Source of the DNA: an uncultured Opitutaceae bacterium
GTDB lineage: Bacteria > Verrucomicrobiota > Verrucomicrobiia > Opitutales > Opitutaceae
Assembly (NCBI GenBank): GCA_903891325.1
Contig: CAITEC010000068.1
Location: forward strand, 1 to 43,626
Length of the DNA: 43,626 nt
Direction of reading: 5' to 3'
In this document: piece after piece, positions 33,064-41,940 of the stretch
How the letters are laid out: each line of letters starts with the position of its first letter
Numbering within the stretch: position 1 is the first letter of the stretch
Translations under genes and position numbers: made by a program
Notes under the pieces: model-generated
Database searches by the model: none
Told to the model about the DNA's origin: nothing
The model's input: the letters and a program-made list of their open reading frames with translations, nothing else

Positions 33064-33387
33064 ATGATGTCTAAAGATATCCTGCAATCGTTCGGCGATG
33101 GTTGCCGCCGGTTGCGTTTGGAGCGCAACGAAACCCAGGCCGCCCTTGCCAAACGGGCGAAGATCGGGGTGGCCACACTGCATCGATTCGAGCAAACGGG
33201 TCGAATCAATACCGCAGCGCTTGCCCGTCTGCTATTTGCCTTGGGCCGGGACGAGGCGGCCGGGGAACTCTTTAGGTCAGTCAACACCGAGGTAAAAAGC
33301 CTGGACCAATTGGAATTGGCTGCTGCCATCCGCCACCGCAGCCGCCAACGTGCTCGGGCTAGGAAGGGGGCGTCCCATGCGCGTTAG
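33064..33387 (+). CDS. hipB: HipB-like XRE antitoxin/repressor
   Basis: A 107-residue protein with an XRE helix-turn-helix (about 10-65; RLRLERNETQAALAKRAKIG). Located directly upstream of hipA, which it overlaps by 11 nt, matching the usual antitoxin-first order. HipB dimers bind operator palindromes and hold HipA inactive. ATG at 33064 or 33067. Base composition upstream is far more A/T-rich than the core genome. Confidence 0.8.
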   Translation: MMSKDILQSFGDGCRRLRLERNETQAALAKRAKIGVATLHRFEQTGRINTAALARLLFALGRDEAAGELFRSVNTEVKSLDQLELAAAIRHRSRQRARARKGASHAR

Positions 33388-34663
33388 GGTACTCATGGGT
33401 GATACCCTGGTCGGGCAATTGGCCGACATTGAAGGGACGATCTATTTCGAGTTCGACGCAGCATTTCTCCAATCAAATGTGGAGATTTCCCCGCTCCATT
33501 GGCGCCTCGCAGCCGGTGCGCGGGCATGTCGCAAAGGGCATTTACACAACCTGCCAGGCTTTTGCTATGACAGTCTGCCGGATGCCTGGGGCGAACGGAT
33601 CATGGCCAGGTGGTTCCTAGCCGAACAAAAGAGGGCCATTGAGTCAGTCACGCCCTTGGAGCAACTCTGTTTTGTAGGAGACCGCGGGGTGGGGGCGCTA
33701 CGCTACGAGCCTGTGCTCCTCAAGGACGATCCGCTTCGTGATGAGGCGCGAGACGCCCTGGACCTCCGCCGCATCGAGAGCGAAGCCCGGGCCGTTCTTG
33801 ATGCCCCGGAAAGCGAAGCTATTCCCGGATTAATTGAGCTCGCGCGGAACGGCTCGGCCGGCGGGGCGCGCCCAAAGATCTGGATTGGCGTAAAGGAGCG
33901 TGGCCCGTCCGGTGAAGAGCCTCGTCTAATAGCCAGCCCCCACAAGTTGCCATCGGGGTACACGCCTTGGCTCCTTAAACTGGACGTACCCAAGGTTGGC
34001 GCCCAATACCGGGAATACGGCCGGCTGGAGCACGCCTACGCACTTATGGCCAAGGCCGCCGGCCTGCGAACCTGCAAGACGCGAATCTTCACGGCCAAAG
34101 ACGAAAACGGACACGACCGGGCTCATTTTGCCATCGCTCGCTTCGACCGTGAACCCGCCGGGAAGCGGATCTTTTTCCACAGCCTGGCCGGCATCACCGA
34201 ATCAGATTTCGATGCCGATCTCGGATACGAGCTACTCCTCGACACGACCCAGGAGATTACCCGCGACCATACAGAACTAGTGGAGGCCTTTCGGCGGGCC
34301 GTATTCAACGTGGCGGCCCGAGTACGGGACGACCATGCCAAGAATCATGGATTTCTTTACAGCGGCGGGCGCTGGCGCCTTTCCCCGGCATACGACATGG
34401 TTTACGCGTCCCCTGGGAGATTTCAGCGCCACGCAATGAGCGTTGGTGGCAGCGTTCAACCAGGCGTGGCTCACCTGCAAACCCTCGCATCTTACAGCGG
34501 CATCAACGCGAAAGAAGCGGCCGCGGTAATGGAAAAATGCCGCCGAGCTGTGAAGGGTTGGCGGAAATTCGCCACCCAAGCTGGAGTGTCGGAAGCTCGG
34601 CAAATTGAAGTCGAAAAGAACCTGCCAGGCCAGACTTGGGACAAGGTGGTCGGCCGACCTTAA
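33377..34663 (+). CDS. hipA: HipA-family Ser/Thr kinase toxin
   Basis: A 428-residue HipA-like protein. The N-subdomain is followed by the kinase with the nucleotide loop GGARPK (162-167), catalytic loop RDDHAKNHG (around D319 and N323) and metal-binding D340 in LSPAYDM. E. coli HipA phosphorylates GltX and induces persistence; this family member's target is unknown. ATG 33377 overlaps hipB. It may also serve phage defence. All catalytic residues are visible so it should be active. Confidence 0.88.
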   Translation: MRVRVLMGDTLVGQLADIEGTIYFEFDAAFLQSNVEISPLHWRLAAGARACRKGHLHNLPGFCYDSLPDAWGERIMARWFLAEQKRAIESVTPLEQLCFVGDRGVGALRYEPVLLKDDPLRDEARDALDLRRIESEARAVLDAPESEAIPGLIELARNGSAGGARPKIWIGVKERGPSGEEPRLIASPHKLPSGYTPWLLKLDVPKVGAQYREYGRLEHAYALMAKAAGLRTCKTRIFTAKDENGHDRAHFAIARFDREPAGKRIFFHSLAGITESDFDADLGYELLLDTTQEITRDHTELVEAFRRAVFNVAARVRDDHAKNHGFLYSGGRWRLSPAYDMVYASPGRFQRHAMSVGGSVQPGVAHLQTLASYSGINAKEAAAVMEKCRRAVKGWRKFATQAGVSEARQIEVEKNLPGQTWDKVVGRP

Positions 34664-34851
34664 GAAGTCGGGTCTTACATTTCACCCTCTCCCCTCCAAT
34701 GCCCCGTTGTCGGGATTTTAGCTTGCCGCACCTAAGCCCTGGAGGGTAATACTCGCCTTCTGACGGTAGCGTGACCATCCCGTCCGTCTGTTCTTTGTCC
34801 AGAGGTCACGACATTGTCAGTTGGCTAAGCTGTTACAGTTTAGTTTTTTAC

Positions 34852-34933
34852 GCCCGGGTGGTGGAATTGGTAGACACGCAGGTCTCAGAAGCCTGTGCCT
34901 AACCGCATGGGGGTTCGAGTCCCCCCTCGGGCA
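34852..34933 (+). tRNA. tRNA-Leu (anticodon CAG)
   Basis: An 82-nt cloverleaf can be drawn: acceptor stem gcccggg/ctcgggc with one G-U, discriminator A at 34933, anticodon stem caggt/gcctg around loop ctCAGaa, a long class II variable arm, and the T arm ggggg-TTCGAGT-ccccc. CCA is not encoded. The anticodon reads CUG leucine codons. Its position inside the accessory region makes it a plausible integration site. Confidence 0.93.
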
Positions 34934-35085: not shown

Positions 35086-37023
35086 ATGAGGCTCTATTCC
35101 GGTACGGCCACAGAATTCACGGAAGACGCAGCCCACAATCGAATCGCTGATAAACTTCGATCGGCATTCAAGGCGAGTTTTAGATACGAACCCGGTCCGG
35201 CCGAGGTCAATTCATGGCGCAATTCTTTGCGCGCAATGGCCATGGTTTTCGAGCGCGCGCACCTCAAAGACAACGGAGTGCTCCTGGAATATCAACTTCC
35301 AGCGATGTCACGGAGGCTCGATTGCATGATTACCGGGCGCAATCGCGAAAAATCCGCACAAGCCGTCATTGTTGAATTAAAGCAATGGGAGAAATGTGAA
35401 GAAGCCGAAGGAGAGAGCATTCTCACGTTCACTGGCGGGGCGAAACGTGACGTCTTGCATCCATCCGTTCAGGTTGGCGGATACCGAAATTATCTCGCGG
35501 ACTCCCATACTGCTTTTGACTTCGATACTGATCCCATTGGCCTCGCAGCGTGCGCTTTCCTGCATAATTACTCCTTTAACGAAAACGACCCCCTCCTAGC
35601 GCCAAAATTTGAACCATGGGTTAAGGACTTTCCGATATTCTCCCAGGACGATACGGAGAAATTGATTGAGGACTTAAACAGTCGGCTTGGAGCAGGTGAT
35701 GGAATGCCACTCCTGGACCGAGTCGAGCGCAGCAAGTACAAGCCCAGCCGAAAGCTGCTCGAGCATGTAGCGCAAATGATAGACGGGCGTCCTGAATATG
35801 TGCTGCTTGACGAGCAACTGATTGCGTTCGACAGGGTACTTTCTGCGGCAAGGGCAGCCAAGAAGAGCCGACGAAAGAGCGTTATCCTTGTGATCGGGGG
35901 GCCTGGAACCGGAAAATCCGTGATCGCCCTAAATTTGGTCGCAAAGTTGGCGAGCGAAGGAATCTCAAGTCACTACGCGACGGGATCGAGCGCGTTCACC
36001 CAAACGCTTCGAAAAATCGTTGGGCAAAGGGCTAGCTCGCTGTTCCACTACTTCAACAGCTACTCGGATATGGAGGCGGAGGCGCTAAATGTCGTCATTT
36101 GCGACGAAGCCCATCGGCTGCGTAAAACCAGCTCGAATCGGTATACGCCTGCAGCTAGGAGAACCGGAAAGGCCCAAATTCAAGAGCTGATCGACGTGGC
36201 CCAAACGGCCGTTTTCTTTATCGACGATCGGCAGCTCGTGCGCCCGGACGAGATCGGCTCGACCGCCCTTATTCGCGCTGCCTCCAAGGAGAACAAGGCG
36301 GAATTCCATGAAATCAAGCTTGAGGCACAATTCAGATGTTCTGGCTCCGATGCCTTCATTCAATGGATCGACAACACTCTCGAACTCGATCGCACCCCGA
36401 CAGTTCTGTGGAATTTAGGAGATCCGTTCGAGTTTCGCATCGTCGATTCGCCGGAATCCCTTGATGAATCAATTCGATCGAGATTGGCCGGCGGATTCAA
36501 AGCGCGGCTAACAGCAGGTTTTTGTTGGCCATGGTCGAATCCTGCGGCAGATGGAACGCTGGTTCAGGATGTGAATCTGGGTGCCTTCAGGAGACCTTGG
36601 AACGCTAAACCGGATGCCAGTGGTTTGGCGAAAGGCATCCCGAAGGCGCCTCTATGGGCCTACAGCAATGGCGGAGAGGACCAGATCGGGTGCATCTACA
36701 CGGCCCAGGGATTTGAATTTGACTACGTCGGTGTAATTTTTGGCACAGACTTGGTTTACCGCAGTGGGCGAGGGTGGGTCGGCCAGCGCGAGAATTCATG
36801 CGATGGCCCAGTGAAACGAGGCGGCGATCGCTTTGCCGAACTGGTCAAGAACACCTACCGGGTGTTGCTTACGCGCGGATTGAAGGGCTGCTATGTCTTT
36901 TTCCAAGACAAGGAGACGGAAATCTTCTTCAGGAGCCGCACTGAAAGTCTGCGGGGAGGATATTCAGAATCGTCAGATGACTCCGGACTAAATGCTGCTG
37001 AAGATCCTCCGGATCGAAAATGA
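35086..37023 (+). CDS. PD-(D/E)XK nuclease-DUF2075 SF1 helicase fusion
   Basis: A 645-residue protein. Residues 60-100 contain a restriction-nuclease-like core: E69, D79 (RRLDCMITG) and E97-L-K99 (AVIVELKQW). From about 260 follows a DUF2075 (schlafen-group-3-like) superfamily 1 helicase: Walker A GGPGTGKS (271-278), Walker B VVICDEAHR (337-344), the FFIDDRQ motif, the LEAQFRC motif (412-418), and IYTAQGFEFDYVGV with NTYRVLLTRG near the C-terminus. The combination suggests a DNA- or RNA-cleaving, ATP-driven enzyme. It overlaps the following HNH endonuclease gene by 4 nt (ATGA), so the two proteins probably work together, most likely in defence. Confidence 0.82.
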   Translation: MRLYSGTATEFTEDAAHNRIADKLRSAFKASFRYEPGPAEVNSWRNSLRAMAMVFERAHLKDNGVLLEYQLPAMSRRLDCMITGRNREKSAQAVIVELKQWEKCEEAEGESILTFTGGAKRDVLHPSVQVGGYRNYLADSHTAFDFDTDPIGLAACAFLHNYSFNENDPLLAPKFEPWVKDFPIFSQDDTEKLIEDLNSRLGAGDGMPLLDRVERSKYKPSRKLLEHVAQMIDGRPEYVLLDEQLIAFDRVLSAARAAKKSRRKSVILVIGGPGTGKSVIALNLVAKLASEGISSHYATGSSAFTQTLRKIVGQRASSLFHYFNSYSDMEAEALNVVICDEAHRLRKTSSNRYTPAARRTGKAQIQELIDVAQTAVFFIDDRQLVRPDEIGSTALIRAASKENKAEFHEIKLEAQFRCSGSDAFIQWIDNTLELDRTPTVLWNLGDPFEFRIVDSPESLDESIRSRLAGGFKARLTAGFCWPWSNPAADGTLVQDVNLGAFRRPWNAKPDASGLAKGIPKAPLWAYSNGGEDQIGCIYTAQGFEFDYVGVIFGTDLVYRSGRGWVGQRENSCDGPVKRGGDRFAELVKNTYRVLLTRGLKGCYVFFQDKETEIFFRSRTESLRGGYSESSDDSGLNAAEDPPDRK

Positions 37024-37931
37024 AACTCTTCGTTGGTGTAACAAATAACGAGTGGTTCCGATTTCTCGCCAATCAAGAGCCGGATGAAGTGAACTTCTGG
37101 CGCCCACGCAGTCAGATGGAGTTTAGGGCACTCAAGCCCGGTGACCTATTTCTTTTCAAGTTGCACTCGCCACTCGATTTTATCGCTGGTGGCGGAGTAT
37201 TTGTTCGGCATACCTTCCTTCCACTGGCGCTCGCGTGGCAGGCATTCGGAGAAAAAAACGGTGTGCCTGACTACGATACCTTCGAGCGCCGAATACTTGA
37301 GCACCGGTCACCTGCCGAGCTGCACCAGCAACTAGGCTGCACGATCCTTGTCGAACCGTTCTTTTGGCCGCGCGATGCCTGGATTCCGATCCCAAAGGAT
37401 TGGAGCAAAAATATCGTCACAGGCAAAGGGTACCCGGTTAGCTCTCCATCAGGCGCGGCACTTTGGGCAGAGGTGCAGGCTCGCCTTTCTCGCGAGACAA
37501 TACTGCCTACCAGCACCGCCGAAGGCACCAATCGATTTGGTGCACCAATCACGGTTAGGCCTCGGTTGGGCCAAGGGGCGTTTCGCGTAGAGGTCACCGA
37601 CGCGTATGCCCGGCAATGTGCAATTACCGGTGAAAAGACCCTGCCCGCTCTCGAAGCGGGCCATATTCGTCCTTATGCCAAAAATGGACCACACGAAATT
37701 CGTAATGGCCTACTCCTCCGGTCGGACCTGCATAACCTCTTTGATTTGGGGTACCTTACCGTGACATTTGACTACCGGGTTAAGGTTAGCCGGCGAATTC
37801 GAGATGAATTTCAAAATGGACGGCACTACTATGCCTTAGATGACCAGCCGTTGGCTGTCCTACCTCGCGGAGAGGAATTTCGGCCGGCGGCGGAGTTTCT
37901 TGAATGGCACCACAGTATCTTCAATGGGTGA
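37020..37931 (+). CDS. HNH endonuclease with PUA/EVE-like N-terminal domain
   Basis: The protein has 303 residues. The C-terminal part is an HNH nuclease of the predicted-restriction-enzyme type (COG3440): CAITGEK, H215 (AGHIRPYA), N229 (IRNGLLL) and H238 (DLHNLFDLG). The N-terminal 130 residues (VTNNEWFRFL, MEFRALKPGDLFLFKLHSP, IAGGGVF) have the strand pattern of EVE/PUA-like domains, which read modified bases in type IV restriction enzymes; this is a resemblance, not a firm domain call. Coupled by ATGA to the nuclease-helicase gene. Likely recognises and cuts modified or foreign DNA. Confidence 0.8.
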   Translation: MKLFVGVTNNEWFRFLANQEPDEVNFWRPRSQMEFRALKPGDLFLFKLHSPLDFIAGGGVFVRHTFLPLALAWQAFGEKNGVPDYDTFERRILEHRSPAELHQQLGCTILVEPFFWPRDAWIPIPKDWSKNIVTGKGYPVSSPSGAALWAEVQARLSRETILPTSTAEGTNRFGAPITVRPRLGQGAFRVEVTDAYARQCAITGEKTLPALEAGHIRPYAKNGPHEIRNGLLLRSDLHNLFDLGYLTVTFDYRVKVSRRIRDEFQNGRHYYALDDQPLAVLPRGEEFRPAAEFLEWHHSIFNG

Positions 37932-37938
37932 CTCAAAA

Positions 37939-38673
37939 TCACCCGGAAAATGATGCGCGATGCTTGGCGAGATACTCTTCGTTTGGCCTGAGTTTAGCCT
38001 GGGAATGGAAAAACAGGGGGCGCCCATGGCGGGTTGCCAGATTTTGACTATCGGGACTCCAGTCCGAATAACCGCGCTTGGATACGACGATTCGAAGCTC
38101 CTCGTCGACGGTCCAGAGGAATTCGTCAAATGTCCAATGAGCGTCCGGGGTAAGGGCGAGCCCATTTCGAGGATCATTACTTCGGCTGGTTGAAAACGGC
38201 GCAATATGTGCAGCCTCCACTATGGTCGCGCCGGTCGTGGTCGTCAGAGTGTACCCGGTGAGGGCGCACGTGTAGAGGTATTCAGTGATGACCTGAATTC
38301 TAAAACGGGCGTCCCGGCCGGTGGCGGCTCCATATGCGGCGGCCTCCTCTTCGAGTGTTGCTTTCAACGCACCATCGTCGGGCTTTGTACCGTAAAGAGC
38401 GTAAAGCCCGGCTTGCTCCTCAGCTGGAAACCAGGTTTGGATCAGGACATGGCGCGCCAGATCCCGAAAGATTGGTGACGCGATTTGAGCCGTAAAGTCA
38501 GGGTTTAGTTCGATCGCGACGGTGGAGCGGGGGTCTTTTGCAGGTATACGGTTGACTTGTAGCGGCTTCCAGAAACCTTGCGACGACAGGTGATAGAAGG
38601 GGAGGCTGACATCCGGTTTTGTGGTCCAGCGGCGGACGACAATCGCCCAGGACTCAAGGAACTTGAGTTGAGA
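37939..38673 (-). pseudogene. HNH endonuclease lacking its N-terminus
   Basis: The frame is open from 38673 to 37939 but has no proper start at its beginning. It encodes most of a COG3440-type HNH nuclease: LKFLESWAIVVRRWTTKPD, the QGFWKPL region, then CALTGYTLTT, H in VEAAHIAPFS, NDPRNGLALT and the catalytic histidine in DAHWTFDEF. The first part of the gene has been replaced by an EEP-nuclease fragment. A shorter product from ATG 38367 could be made and would keep the HNH motif, so residual activity is not excluded. It converges on the intact HNH gene, 7 bp away. Confidence 0.75.
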
Positions 38674-39071
38674 TCACCAACAATGGCATACCGGTCTCCA
38701 GCCAAGAAACCCGCAAAGTGATCAAGGGCGGTGTTCAGCAACTTGCTGTAGCAGGAGCCTGCCGGGTATTGAACCGGCCAAGCGGCCAAGAGGTTCATTA
38801 AGACCGCTCCTTTTATGGCGAAGCCGCCGAACAGGGTGGGCGCCCCCGAATTGAGGTCCGAAGGTGTGAGCGAATACCCATTCCTTGCGATGATGCCCAA
38901 TCCAGGATTGTTACGGCCTATCCAAGCGATGTGTCTCAGCTCCTCAGTTACGGGTCTCGCAACCTCGGATAATACTACGACGTCTGCCCCCTCAGCAAAA
39001 AGAAACTCGGCATCCTCGAGAAAGGTGCGCTTGTGGGCGTTATAGTTGGCGTTCCATGAGATGATGCGCAT
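38664..39071 (-). pseudogene. endonuclease/exonuclease/phosphatase (EEP) family fragment
   Basis: From ATG 39071 the frame encodes an EEP/DNase I-like N-terminal half: MRIISWNANYN, then FLFAEGADVVVLSEVARP with the metal-binding glutamate, a central IGRNNPGLGIIARNGYS and AIVGDLNSS. Homology ends at the GDLN motif, exactly where the HNH frame opens; the remaining frame (to 38505) is out-of-register HNH sequence. The catalytic C-terminal SxH histidine is therefore missing and the protein should be inactive. Confidence 0.75.
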
Positions 39072-39331: not shown

Positions 39332-39619
39332 TTGAAGGTGATCAAGAGTTTCGCCGACTCCGAGGCGGAGAAGATATTCGCCGGGATATCGTCACGCCGA
39401 TTGCCACCTGACATTCAGCGAGCAGCCCGTAGAAAACTTCTCCAACTCGACGCCGCCGATCGGCTTGATATCATGCGTTTGCCACCAGGAAACCGCCTCG
39501 AGGCGCTCAAAGGTGGCCGGCGAGGTCGGTACAGTATTCGAATAAATGACCAATGGCGCATTTGCTTTCGTTGGCACGAACAGGATGCGCTAGCGGTCGA
39601 AATCGTGGATTACCATTAA
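39332..39619 (+). CDS. higB: HigB/RelE-type toxin
   Basis: A 95-residue ParE/RelE-superfamily mRNA interferase. The conserved core (YSIRINDQWRICFRW, then AVEIVDYH) is that of HigB/GraT. TTG 39332 has an AGGG 7 nt upstream; GTG 39338 would give the typical family start MIKSF but with a worse ribosome-site spacing. Toxin precedes antitoxin, which is the standard higBA order. Gap to higA is 6 bp. Confidence 0.88.
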   Translation: MKVIKSFADSEAEKIFAGISSRRLPPDIQRAARRKLLQLDAADRLDIMRLPPGNRLEALKGGRRGRYSIRINDQWRICFRWHEQDALAVEIVDYH

Positions 39620-39625
39620 ACTTCT

Positions 39626-39931
39626 ATGAAGACCAAAGCTCCGGATCTTGCAAATATCACGCCTGGCGAAATTTTGGCTGAAGAGTGGATCAAACCCAAT
39701 CATCTCACCTACAGAGCGGTTAGCCTGCGCACGGGTATCCCGGCTTCCCGGTTGACGGAGATTATCAAGGGTCGGCGAGCCGTTACTGCGGATACGGCGC
39801 TGCGGCTCGGCCGCTTCTTTGGAACCGGCGAACGATTTTGGCTTAATCTTCAGCAGGCCTATGACGTTGAACAGGCCAAAGCCGGCCTCGGACAACGCCT
39901 ATCCCGAGAAGTCGAACCGCTGGTGGCATAA
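39626..39931 (+). CDS. higA: HigA antitoxin
   Basis: A 101-residue XRE antitoxin of the HigA/GraA type: N-terminal PGEILAEEWIKP and helix-turn-helix VSLRTGIPASRLTEIIKGRR. It binds HigB and represses the operon. Length and the RLGRFFGTGERFWLNLQQAYD end are typical, so the module looks functional. Confidence 0.92.
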   Translation: MKTKAPDLANITPGEILAEEWIKPNHLTYRAVSLRTGIPASRLTEIIKGRRAVTADTALRLGRFFGTGERFWLNLQQAYDVEQAKAGLGQRLSREVEPLVA

Positions 39932-40415: not shown

Positions 40416-41573
40416 TTATAACTCCCGGAGGAGCGTCCCGAGGTCGACCGTTTGAACGCCGGGTGCCAAGGTGGTGATTCCGGCCGGCGTTCTCGACTTC
40501 CGATGCACCAGCCACATTTCTGCGCGGTTGCCGAGGGTTCGGCCCAGCGACTGCAGAGGCCTCGCCATGGCCGGGGTCGGCGTGCGGGTCGCCTTCACCT
40601 CCACCAACCGCAGTTTTCCATTGTCGCCGGGAATGATAAAATCCACCTCCAGGCCCTGTTCATCCCGAAAGTGGTAGAGTTCCCTTCTTCGCCCGGCGTT
40701 AATCTGGCCCTTTACGATCTCGGCGGCAACGAATCCCTCCCAGAGCGCACCGTAAAAAGGAGAGCGCTCGAGTTCAGAACGCGATCGCAAACCGAGGAGA
40801 TGGGAAGCGAGCCCCGAATCGAGCCAATAAAGCCGGGGTGACTTGAGCAGCCGTTTGCCGAAGTTTTCAAAATAGGGCGGAATCAGCGCCAGGAGTCCCG
40901 TTGTCTCCAGGACCCCAAGCCATTGCCCGATCGTCGGGACAGATATGCCGAGTGGTCCGGCAAGGTCGGTCTTGTTGAGGATCTGGCCGTGCCGGCTCGC
41001 GACTAGTCCCATAAACCGGCGGAAGGTCGCCAGGTCCTTTACCTGGGTCACCGCGCGCACGTCGCGCTCCAAGTAGGTCTGAAGGTATGATGAAAACCAG
41101 AGATCGCGCGCACCCGGGCGGGCGATGACCTCCGGAAAGCCCCCCCGCCATAGATCAACCTTTGCGCTTTCCAATACGCCGAGGGGCAGCATGTGCAGAA
41201 TCGCGGCGCGGCCTGCCAGCGACTCGCTGACACCCTGCATCAACGCTGACTCCTGCGACCCGGTGAGAAACCATTGGCCGGTCTTCCTGGGCGCCGCGTC
41301 GATCCGAGTCCGAACGTAGGACAAGAGCTCCGGGGCATTTTGGACCTCATCGAGAATTACCGGGGCCTTAAGTTCGTCGAAGAAGCCCCTGGGATCGGCA
41401 CGCACACGCGCCAGGACGTCGGGATCCTCGAGGAGGCGGTAGTCCGCCGTCGGAATCAAATGCCGCAGAAGCGAGGTCTTGCCGACTCGCCTGGGCCCTG
41501 TGAGGACAACGGCGGGGAAATTCCGACGAGCCTTCAGCAAGGTGGACTCTATGGCCCTGGAAAGATACCTCAT
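40416..41573 (-). CDS. AAA_14/DUF4143 ATPase
   Basis: A 385-residue ATPase. The AAA domain has Walker A TGPRRVGKT (about 25-33) and Walker B APVILDEVQNAPELL followed by the sensor-like WFLTGSQ. After an HTH-like linker (TDLAGPLGISVPTIGQWL) the C-terminal DUF4143 domain contains a PD-(D/E)XK-like motif: FRDEQGLEVDFII then LRLVEVKAT. Members are common in accessory regions and are mostly uncharacterised. ATG 41573 gives the family start MRYLSRAIE. It is intact, unlike the related fragment near 32.9 kb. Confidence 0.88.
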   Translation of the reverse strand: MRYLSRAIESTLLKARRNFPAVVLTGPRRVGKTSLLRHLIPTADYRLLEDPDVLARVRADPRGFFDELKAPVILDEVQNAPELLSYVRTRIDAAPRKTGQWFLTGSQESALMQGVSESLAGRAAILHMLPLGVLESAKVDLWRGGFPEVIARPGARDLWFSSYLQTYLERDVRAVTQVKDLATFRRFMGLVASRHGQILNKTDLAGPLGISVPTIGQWLGVLETTGLLALIPPYFENFGKRLLKSPRLYWLDSGLASHLLGLRSRSELERSPFYGALWEGFVAAEIVKGQINAGRRRELYHFRDEQGLEVDFIIPGDNGKLRLVEVKATRTPTPAMARPLQSLGRTLGNRAEMWLVHRKSRTPAGITTLAPGVQTVDLGTLLREL

Positions 41574-41668
41574 TTGAGAAAACAAATACTACACTTTATA
41601 AAACTCAATTTAAAAGCATTCATCTGAGAGCGTCAGACCGGGGCCTCAGCAAATTGAGGTCGATTGAA

Positions 41669-41755: not shown

Positions 41756-41800
41756 AGGATCGACTCGCACGTCGTCACCGCTCGTTTTTGGGCCGACCTA

Positions 41801-41884
41801 AGGGGTCATATCTGGACTCTGGACAAAAGGGCAGCTGGAACCTCCGACGGGCTGATTTTTGTCCAGAGTCCAGATATGACCCCT
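41801..41884. repeat. REP-like inverted repeat pair 2
   Basis: A perfect 28-bp inverted repeat (41801-41828 and 41857-41884; arm starts aggggtcatatctggactct) flanks a 28-bp spacer. It shares the ggggtcat head with pair 1. It probably represents a non-autonomous element or the collapsed ends of a lost RAYT transposon. Confidence 0.75.
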
Positions 41885-41940
41885 TTGCCTTGGTCCTTCG
41901 GTTGTTCGTACCGCCTCGGTTTCCCACTAGCGGGGCTGCA

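Follow-up and report, generated by a model that had tools for sequence, protein, structure and literature searches.

A nuclease-helicase gene overlapping a PUA-HNH endonuclease gene in an Opitutaceae defence island, and the wider company kept by its HNH partner

The stretch of DNA analysed here (43,626 nucleotides of contig CAITEC010000068.1, from an uncultured Opitutaceae bacterium; hereafter the window) contains, beside a tRNA-Leu gene, a defence island with an operon of two intact genes. The first gene, N (protein P0001), encodes a helicase of the Schlafen-group-3 (DUF2075) kind with a nuclease-like motif near its N-terminus, and the second, H (P0002), an HNH endonuclease preceded by a domain of the PUA superfamily. 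The stop codon of N and the start codon of H share 4 nucleotides and both genes are intact, as an initial annotation made from the sequence had stated. With middling confidence, we read H as a portable, probably modification-dependent nuclease docked behind an N that resembles Nhi, the nuclease-helicase immunity protein of Staphylococcus epidermidis, and we propose that the two would jointly degrade modified phage DNA. We favour this reading because of the overlap, the intact motifs in both genes, the predicted PUA fold of H and its match to the endonuclease VcaM4I; because H recurs behind varied modules, and the H loci that hold a Schlafen-group-3 helicase are spread over separate branches of its tree; and because a third gene, M (MazG/dCTP-pyrophosphatase-like; dCTP, deoxycytidine triphosphate), adjoins both families, and the pair lies at a tRNA-Leu hot spot in DNA of low guanine-plus-cytosine (GC) content. 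The components are of known kinds; the novelty is an HNH nuclease of the type that reads modified DNA joined to an Nhi-like nuclease-helicase.

The two proteins and their known counterparts

N had been described initially as a PD-(D/E)XK fusion to a superfamily 1 (SF1) helicase of the DUF2075 family, and this holds for the helicase and, towards the N-terminus, for a PD-(D/E)XK-like motif. The protein matches PF09848 with 283 bits (cut-off 24) over the entire profile (1-354 of 354), which places it in Schlafen group 3/DUF2075, and the helicase motif residues K277 (Walker A), D340 and E341 are present. Towards the N-terminus, D79 and E97-x-K99 are invariant in an alignment of 10 sequences, as are E68 and R77, and the strands predicted at residues 64-70, 77-85 and 91-100 fit a putative PD-(D/E)XK core. 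Pfam returned no match for residues 1-220, and the lists of structure matches were taken up by the helicase part, so that they barely probed the nuclease fold; the N profile, searched against PDB sequences, gave one short stretch of HelD.

In PADLOC, N matches PDC-S41 (4e-20), Nhi (4e-11) and AbiO (9e-11), in each case partially. The likeness to Nhi and AbiO is confined to residues 237-418, the ATPase part, and covers only positions 180-330 of the 470 in the Nhi profile, which falls short of membership; N is also the longer chain and its partner genes differ. In the original Nhi study, nuclease and helicase reportedly form a single chain. PDC-S41, a PADLOC phage defence candidate for which we know of no function, belongs to the same helicase superfamily (at E <= 1e-3 it is matched by all 10 sequences of alignment A3), whereas P0001 matches in three partial stretches totalling 69.7 bits, less than full-length membership. 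The model of N superposes poorly as a whole on human SLFN11, nothing indicates a Schlafen RNase core, and the nuclease motif is PD-(D/E)XK-like. According to PMC10732053, phage replication complexes trigger Nhi, which degrades DNA.

The closest full-length relative of N that we found lies on a viral contig (L085, 54% identity; here and below, L numbers denote loci and G numbers genomes). The N of L132 is 51% identical to P0001, and the helicase of L130 only 19%. Some members of the family are longer: Pfam places a C-terminal Peptidase_S24 (LexA/UmuD-like) domain after the helicase in L078 and L178, and the tails of forms of about 800 amino acids (L075, L077, L079-L084) align with the forms that bear it. 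To judge from its sequence, this tail suggests control by cleavage.

The description of H as an HNH endonuclease with a PUA/EVE-like N-terminus is also borne out as regards the HNH domain and the PUA superfamily. Residues 200-248 match PF13391 (HNH_2), the H profile finds VcaM4I (6yex, 6e-13) among PDB sequences at residues 176-269, that is, over the HNH part, and the first half has a predicted PUA fold; these together give H a PUA-superfamily-HNH layout. The same profile search otherwise returned TagI, weakly and over the HNH part, and one weak unrelated stretch, while Foldseek with the predicted model put VcaM4I at the top and also listed TagI. VcaM4I is presented in PMC7897488 as an EVE-HNH modification-dependent endonuclease with a PUA-superfamily domain (1-147), a linker and an HNH domain (179-309), in which the PUA domain flips the modified base and, together with the linker, restrains the HNH domain. 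H has the same succession of N-terminal PUA-superfamily domain, linker and C-terminal HNH domain, and its residues H215, N229, H238 and D242 are spaced by 14, 9 and 4, compared with 17, 9 and 4 for H224, N241, D250 and D254 of VcaM4I (matched by spacing, not by alignment). The two differ in several respects: the first half of H superposes better on ASCH than on EVE structures, the sequence match is confined to the HNH part, and the H of the window sits in an operon with a helicase. In the comparison with EVE and Schlafen structures that the initial annotation had suggested, the predicted PUA fold and the top match to VcaM4I stand, ASCH is closer than EVE, and N fits SLFN11 poorly overall.

From this analysis, H is probably a modification-dependent endonuclease. 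As for the base that it might read, ASCH domains have been proposed as readers of N6-methyladenine (6mA), and experimental support so far exists only for modified cytosine (PMC11037411). A phosphorothioate-dependent enzyme was considered and rejected, the match to PT-DNA_restrict (NF045808) reaching 66.5 bits against a cut-off of 180 and involving the HNH part alone. Elsewhere, an H-family domain forms the C-terminal end of a 701-amino-acid open reading frame (ORF), in the first part of which Pfam recognises nothing (L142:6686-8791), and a 323-amino-acid HNH_2 protein of another kind is found near H in L055:5795-6766 (G015) and beside tRNA-Leu in L221:397-1368 (G008).

Linkage of N, H and M across genomes

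H recurs beside other defence modules of varied kinds. In L176:5425-11280 (G749, from the window's family), a McrB-like ATPase and McrC are directly followed by H and then by H2, a second HNH gene; McrC and H overlap by 4 nucleotides. H follows a type I R gene (HsdR) in L017/L182, type IIG genes in L042 and L057 (H being broken in the latter) and SIR2-HerA in L004, where an Eco57I-type gene lies about 4 kb upstream; in L008 it comes after ZorA-ZorB (Zorya) and one intervening gene. The order is reversed in L011 and L019, where H comes before MmeI and a type IV gene, respectively, and in L138:6327-9293 H is followed by another HNH gene and then a C5 cytosine methyltransferase. In the H tree, the copies from L176 and L178 group as sisters (support 99/93); both come with H2, preceded by McrBC in the one and by N, a gene X and M in the other. 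These settings hint that H, with or without H2, is a cassette moving between modules driven by nucleoside triphosphates (NTPs), and the two sisters are the strongest single clue.

The same neighbourhoods bear on a more conventional role, in which H would be a type II-like restriction nuclease shielded by the methyltransferases of its module rather than dependent on modification. Type IIG, MmeI and C5-methyltransferase genes adjoin H or lie near it in L042, L057, L011 and L138, as does the Eco57I-type gene in L004. Nevertheless, we consider this role very unlikely: the predicted PUA-superfamily fold and the VcaM4I-like layout speak for a reader of modified DNA, and no methyltransferase turned up in a scan of ten proteins around H, all of them from the window.

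The linkage of the genes was counted over 53 unique H loci and 33 N loci. The H loci include broken or cut genes (such as L009, L018, L043, L057 and L182); dropped from them were duplicates (L054 = L002, L003 = L175, L017 = L182, L012 = L123, with L015 merged into L124 on equal scores and coordinates), copies of the window (L001, L020, L037, L044, L162 and L214) and matches to the HNH part only (such as L025-L035, L038, L039 and L119-L122). Among the N loci, too, some are cut or broken (such as L067, L074, L076, L086 and L158-L160), and the 24 H loci counted as Gemmatimonadota comprise L010 and those found in the phylum of G436. As a control for the linkage of H with M and with helicases, not for that of N with M, we used McrC loci of the same drawn genomes (30 loci out of 44 rows); this sample holds at least one near-identical genome pair (G439, G488) on both sides.

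The conserved co-occurrence of N and H that the initial annotation had suggested looking for is not borne out by these surveys. Among 57 relatives, 5 genomes have an H that belongs to the full family (HNH-only matches in 16) and 4 match N strongly (weak ATPase matches in 10); among 387 genomes of the phylum, searched at E <= 1e-20, N is present in 12 and H in 4; in either set only the window's genome has both. A first survey of 18 H loci found no N in their flanks, some of which are short, and none at E <= 1e-10 in their genomes (0/18; this search lacked its own positive control). H occurs in 14 of the 252 genomes of the window's family; in the phylum of G436 (Gemmatimonadota), the 249 genomes include 26 with H, 10 with N and, by these profiles, one with both (L132).

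Schlafen-group-3 helicases nonetheless appear in five of the 53 H loci, namely the window, L178, L132, L130 and L140, and these are scattered over several separate branches of the H tree. In L178, from the window's family, an N with the S24 tail, X, M, H and H2 follow one another in the same direction; in L132, from Gemmatimonadota, N is followed on one strand by M, H and H2; in L130, a full-length PDC-S41 helicase (1.5e-264, 877 bits), N', directly precedes H and M; and in L140, a helicase (PF09848, 1.7e-77) belongs to a type I restriction locus with H. A fixed two-gene system was rejected, as only 4/52 other H loci and 1/33 N loci show the linkage. The initial proposal of the pair as a new defence system keeps its other part: N and H are both defence-type proteins, and Schlafen-group-3 helicases accompany H on separate branches.

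Alternatively, two independent defence genes may have come to lie head to tail by chance in a defence island at a tRNA hot spot, with an overlap produced by recombination, and would share co-transcription at most and no joint mechanism. This seemed likely after the first surveys and was weakened by the finds in L130, L132, L140 and L178; we now regard it as possible though doubtful. Defence genes cluster anyhow, 12 of the 13 other H loci in the window's family have no Schlafen-group-3 helicase in the fetched flanks (the nearest, L002, L055, L176, L177 and L180, among them), and the closest relatives of N (L074 and L076, which are fragments, L085 and L070) have no H. Chance accounts less readily for helicases in H loci on several branches, for a helicase and H that are directly adjacent or parted only by M, or by X and M, in L130, L132 and L178, and for M, which is common to both families and accompanies H beyond the McrC control.

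The M profile matches an unspecified bacterial pyrophosphatase (4qgp, 1e-33) and then dCTP pyrophosphatase 1/RS21-C6 (6sqw/2a3q, 2e-29). M is adjacent to N on the same strand in 15/33 N loci, including L085, and adjoins H in 13 of the 53 unique H loci (12/24 in Gemmatimonadota, 1/14 in the window's family and 0/15 in others). Within 1.5-kb flanks, it was found at 11/26 Gemmatimonadota H loci and at 0/30 McrC control loci (p = 5e-5, a value that treats the loci as independent, which they are not wholly). In L127:6563-7807 (G489), a PUA-HNH and a MazG-like stretch share one 414-amino-acid ORF that, by its sequence, looks like an H-M fusion; its M part scores 74 bits with our own M profile and is not detected by Pfam. 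The initial annotation could not see this partner because M is absent from the window; the window's genome has an M gene elsewhere (G000:C49:8690-9034). An ORF with an HExxH-like stretch and no Pfam or PADLOC match lies just before MazG in L178:5694-6536 and L085:3833-4639.

The recurrence of M raises the question of whether N, M and H are a single modular device against phages with modified cytosine, from which the window would have lost M or for which it would use the copy elsewhere in the genome. M would then hydrolyse modified dCTP, which would be kept out of host DNA or of which the phage would run short. The orders N-X-M-H-H2 (L178), N-M-H-H2 (L132) and N'-H-M (L130), the single ORF of L127, the match to dCTP pyrophosphatase 1/RS21-C6 and the frequent adjacency of M to both families, with an M gene in the window's own genome, agree with such a device. 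We think it unlikely, as all three genes stand together in few loci (L178, L132 and L130) and the linkage of H with M is almost confined to Gemmatimonadota. A related proposal, which we would call rather unlikely, is a modular system of N, M and one or two HNH nucleases (PUA-HNH and H2) against the same phages, with the window as a reduced N-H form whose H2 has decayed; here the pyrophosphatase would police the modified nucleotide pool and the nucleases would destroy modified DNA.

Viral contigs yielded no matches to P0001, P0002 or the L132 helicase; the L085 helicase retrieved itself alone, the H profile gave 0/19 stretches that are relatives, and the N profile gave three loci, in one of which the match is limited to an ATP-binding stretch. 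Among phage records, 4 held N-like matches (3 of them spanning most of the query) and 11 held matches to the HNH part.

No description of an N-H or N-M-H set was found in the open literature (bioRxiv preprints were not covered as such, and the H-M pair was not searched under its own name), nor does the available text of PMC7641849, PMC12839542, PMC11514479 and PMC12923530 describe one. PMC7641849 treats EVE-HNH architectures, in the portions available without DUF2075, Schlafen or MazG. DUF2075 was absent among the matches listed for literature on Schlafen/DUF2075 defence, and PDC-S41 among those listed for PADLOC candidates. The initial statement that no described system made of this pair is known agrees with the literature searched, with the qualification that a distant relative of N is already a single-gene PADLOC candidate, PDC-S41.

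The tRNA-Leu locus and its neighbourhood

The placement of the pair beside a tRNA gene, hipBA and higBA, as first annotated, is confirmed by ARAGORN and by domain matches (table 1), and the two toxin-antitoxin loci flank it. GC content dips to 52-54% across N and H, compared with 66-67% in the surroundings. Among 11 congeneric tRNA-Leu loci from 10 genomes, several of which end at contig edges, Phage_integrase (PF00589) genes adjoin the tRNA in three (L222, L224 and L217), and an HNH_2 gene adjoins it in a fourth (L221). With such neighbours, the genus seems to have an integration hot spot at tRNA-Leu(CAG). A search with the 22-nucleotide 3' end of the tRNA (up to 3 mismatches) matched only the tRNA itself in the window, with no repeat at a far border; the border may lie outside the window.

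Table 1. Coordinates of the main features in the window
Feature	Position	Strand	Evidence or remarks
Gene N (P0001), PD-(D/E)XK-like nuclease + Schlafen-group-3 (DUF2075) SF1 helicase, 645 amino acids	35086..37023	+	
Putative PD-(D/E)XK core of N, residues 64-100	35275..35385	+	D79 codon 35320-35322, E97/K99
SF1 helicase domain of N, residues 264-608	35875..36909	+	PF09848; Walker A K277 codon 35914-35916
Gene H (P0002), PUA-superfamily (ASCH/EVE-like) domain + HNH endonuclease, 303 amino acids	37020..37931	+	
PUA-superfamily domain + linker of H, about residues 1-159 (predicted)	37020..37496	+	
HNH domain of H, about residues 179-299	37554..37916	+	H215 codon 37662-37664; N229, H238, D242
tRNA-Leu(CAG)	34852..34933	+	ARAGORN; ends 152 nucleotides upstream of gene N
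HipB/HipA-type toxin-antitoxin genes, left of tRNA	33064..34663	+	HTH_31 4.7e-6, HipA_C 1.3e-43
HigB/HigA-type toxin-antitoxin genes	39332..39931	+	HigB-like_toxin 5e-18, HTH_3 1.6e-6
Second HNH gene remnant (H2 family), convergent with H	37939..38604	-	PF13391 4.7e-13

The ORF of the H2 family beyond H is, by its sequence, a remnant, because its intact relatives align with it only from residue 79 or 82 onward; in tblastn, residues 79-301 of the L178 H2 align at 38604-37966 with 29.9% identity. It also matches PT-DNA_restrict, below the cut-off.

Further features lie to the right. An ORF at 38505-39071 (-) has a weak, sub-threshold Exo_endo_phos match (E 0.024), and one at 40416-41585 (-) encodes an AAA_14-DUF4143 ATPase; an ORF of the same length and with a very similar start lies near H in a congener (G006, L056:7145-8314). 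A perfect 29-nucleotide inverted repeat with a 28-nucleotide loop occupies 41800-41885, and a 25-nucleotide stretch within it (41844-41868) is 80% like 34780-34804.

Mechanism and meaning of the pair

If H is indeed a portable, modification-dependent nuclease docked behind an Nhi-like N, the two might act as follows. Like VcaM4I, H would flip out and read a modified base with its PUA-superfamily domain, which together with the linker would hold the HNH domain in check, and the HNH domain would cut the DNA. Through overlap or close linkage, H would dock behind many NTP-driven restriction and defence modules, the module in the window being N. Like Nhi, N would be set off by phage replication complexes and may act on the ends or replication intermediates of invading DNA by unwinding and degradation. 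The joint target of N and H would be modified phage DNA beyond the reach of ordinary restriction, which they would degrade. M accompanies them in many relatives, perhaps clearing modified or non-standard deoxynucleotides such as forms of dCTP, as we infer from its family.

Several observations weigh against this mechanism. The linkage of N and H is a minority arrangement by the counts given above, and within 1.5 kb a helicase accompanies 2/26 H loci against 0/30 McrC controls, which is not significant (p = 0.21). The model of H is moderate, with a mean predicted local distance difference test score (pLDDT) of 68 and a poor HNH half, and its global superposition on VcaM4I is poor; that of N is weak (mean pLDDT 60, below 50 past residue 415). 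Some H loci include methyltransferase-bearing systems (IIG, MmeI and, in L138, the C5 methyltransferase), which an ordinary restriction role fits too, and the window has no M.

As far as the gene content and order of the surveyed loci go, many restriction and defence modules have the PUA-HNH gene beside them as a recurring, portable end-piece, and two defence-type families, N and H, are linked via a nucleotide-pool enzyme, M. If this link is functional, a form of defence that couples the policing of the nucleotide pool with the cutting of modified DNA becomes testable.

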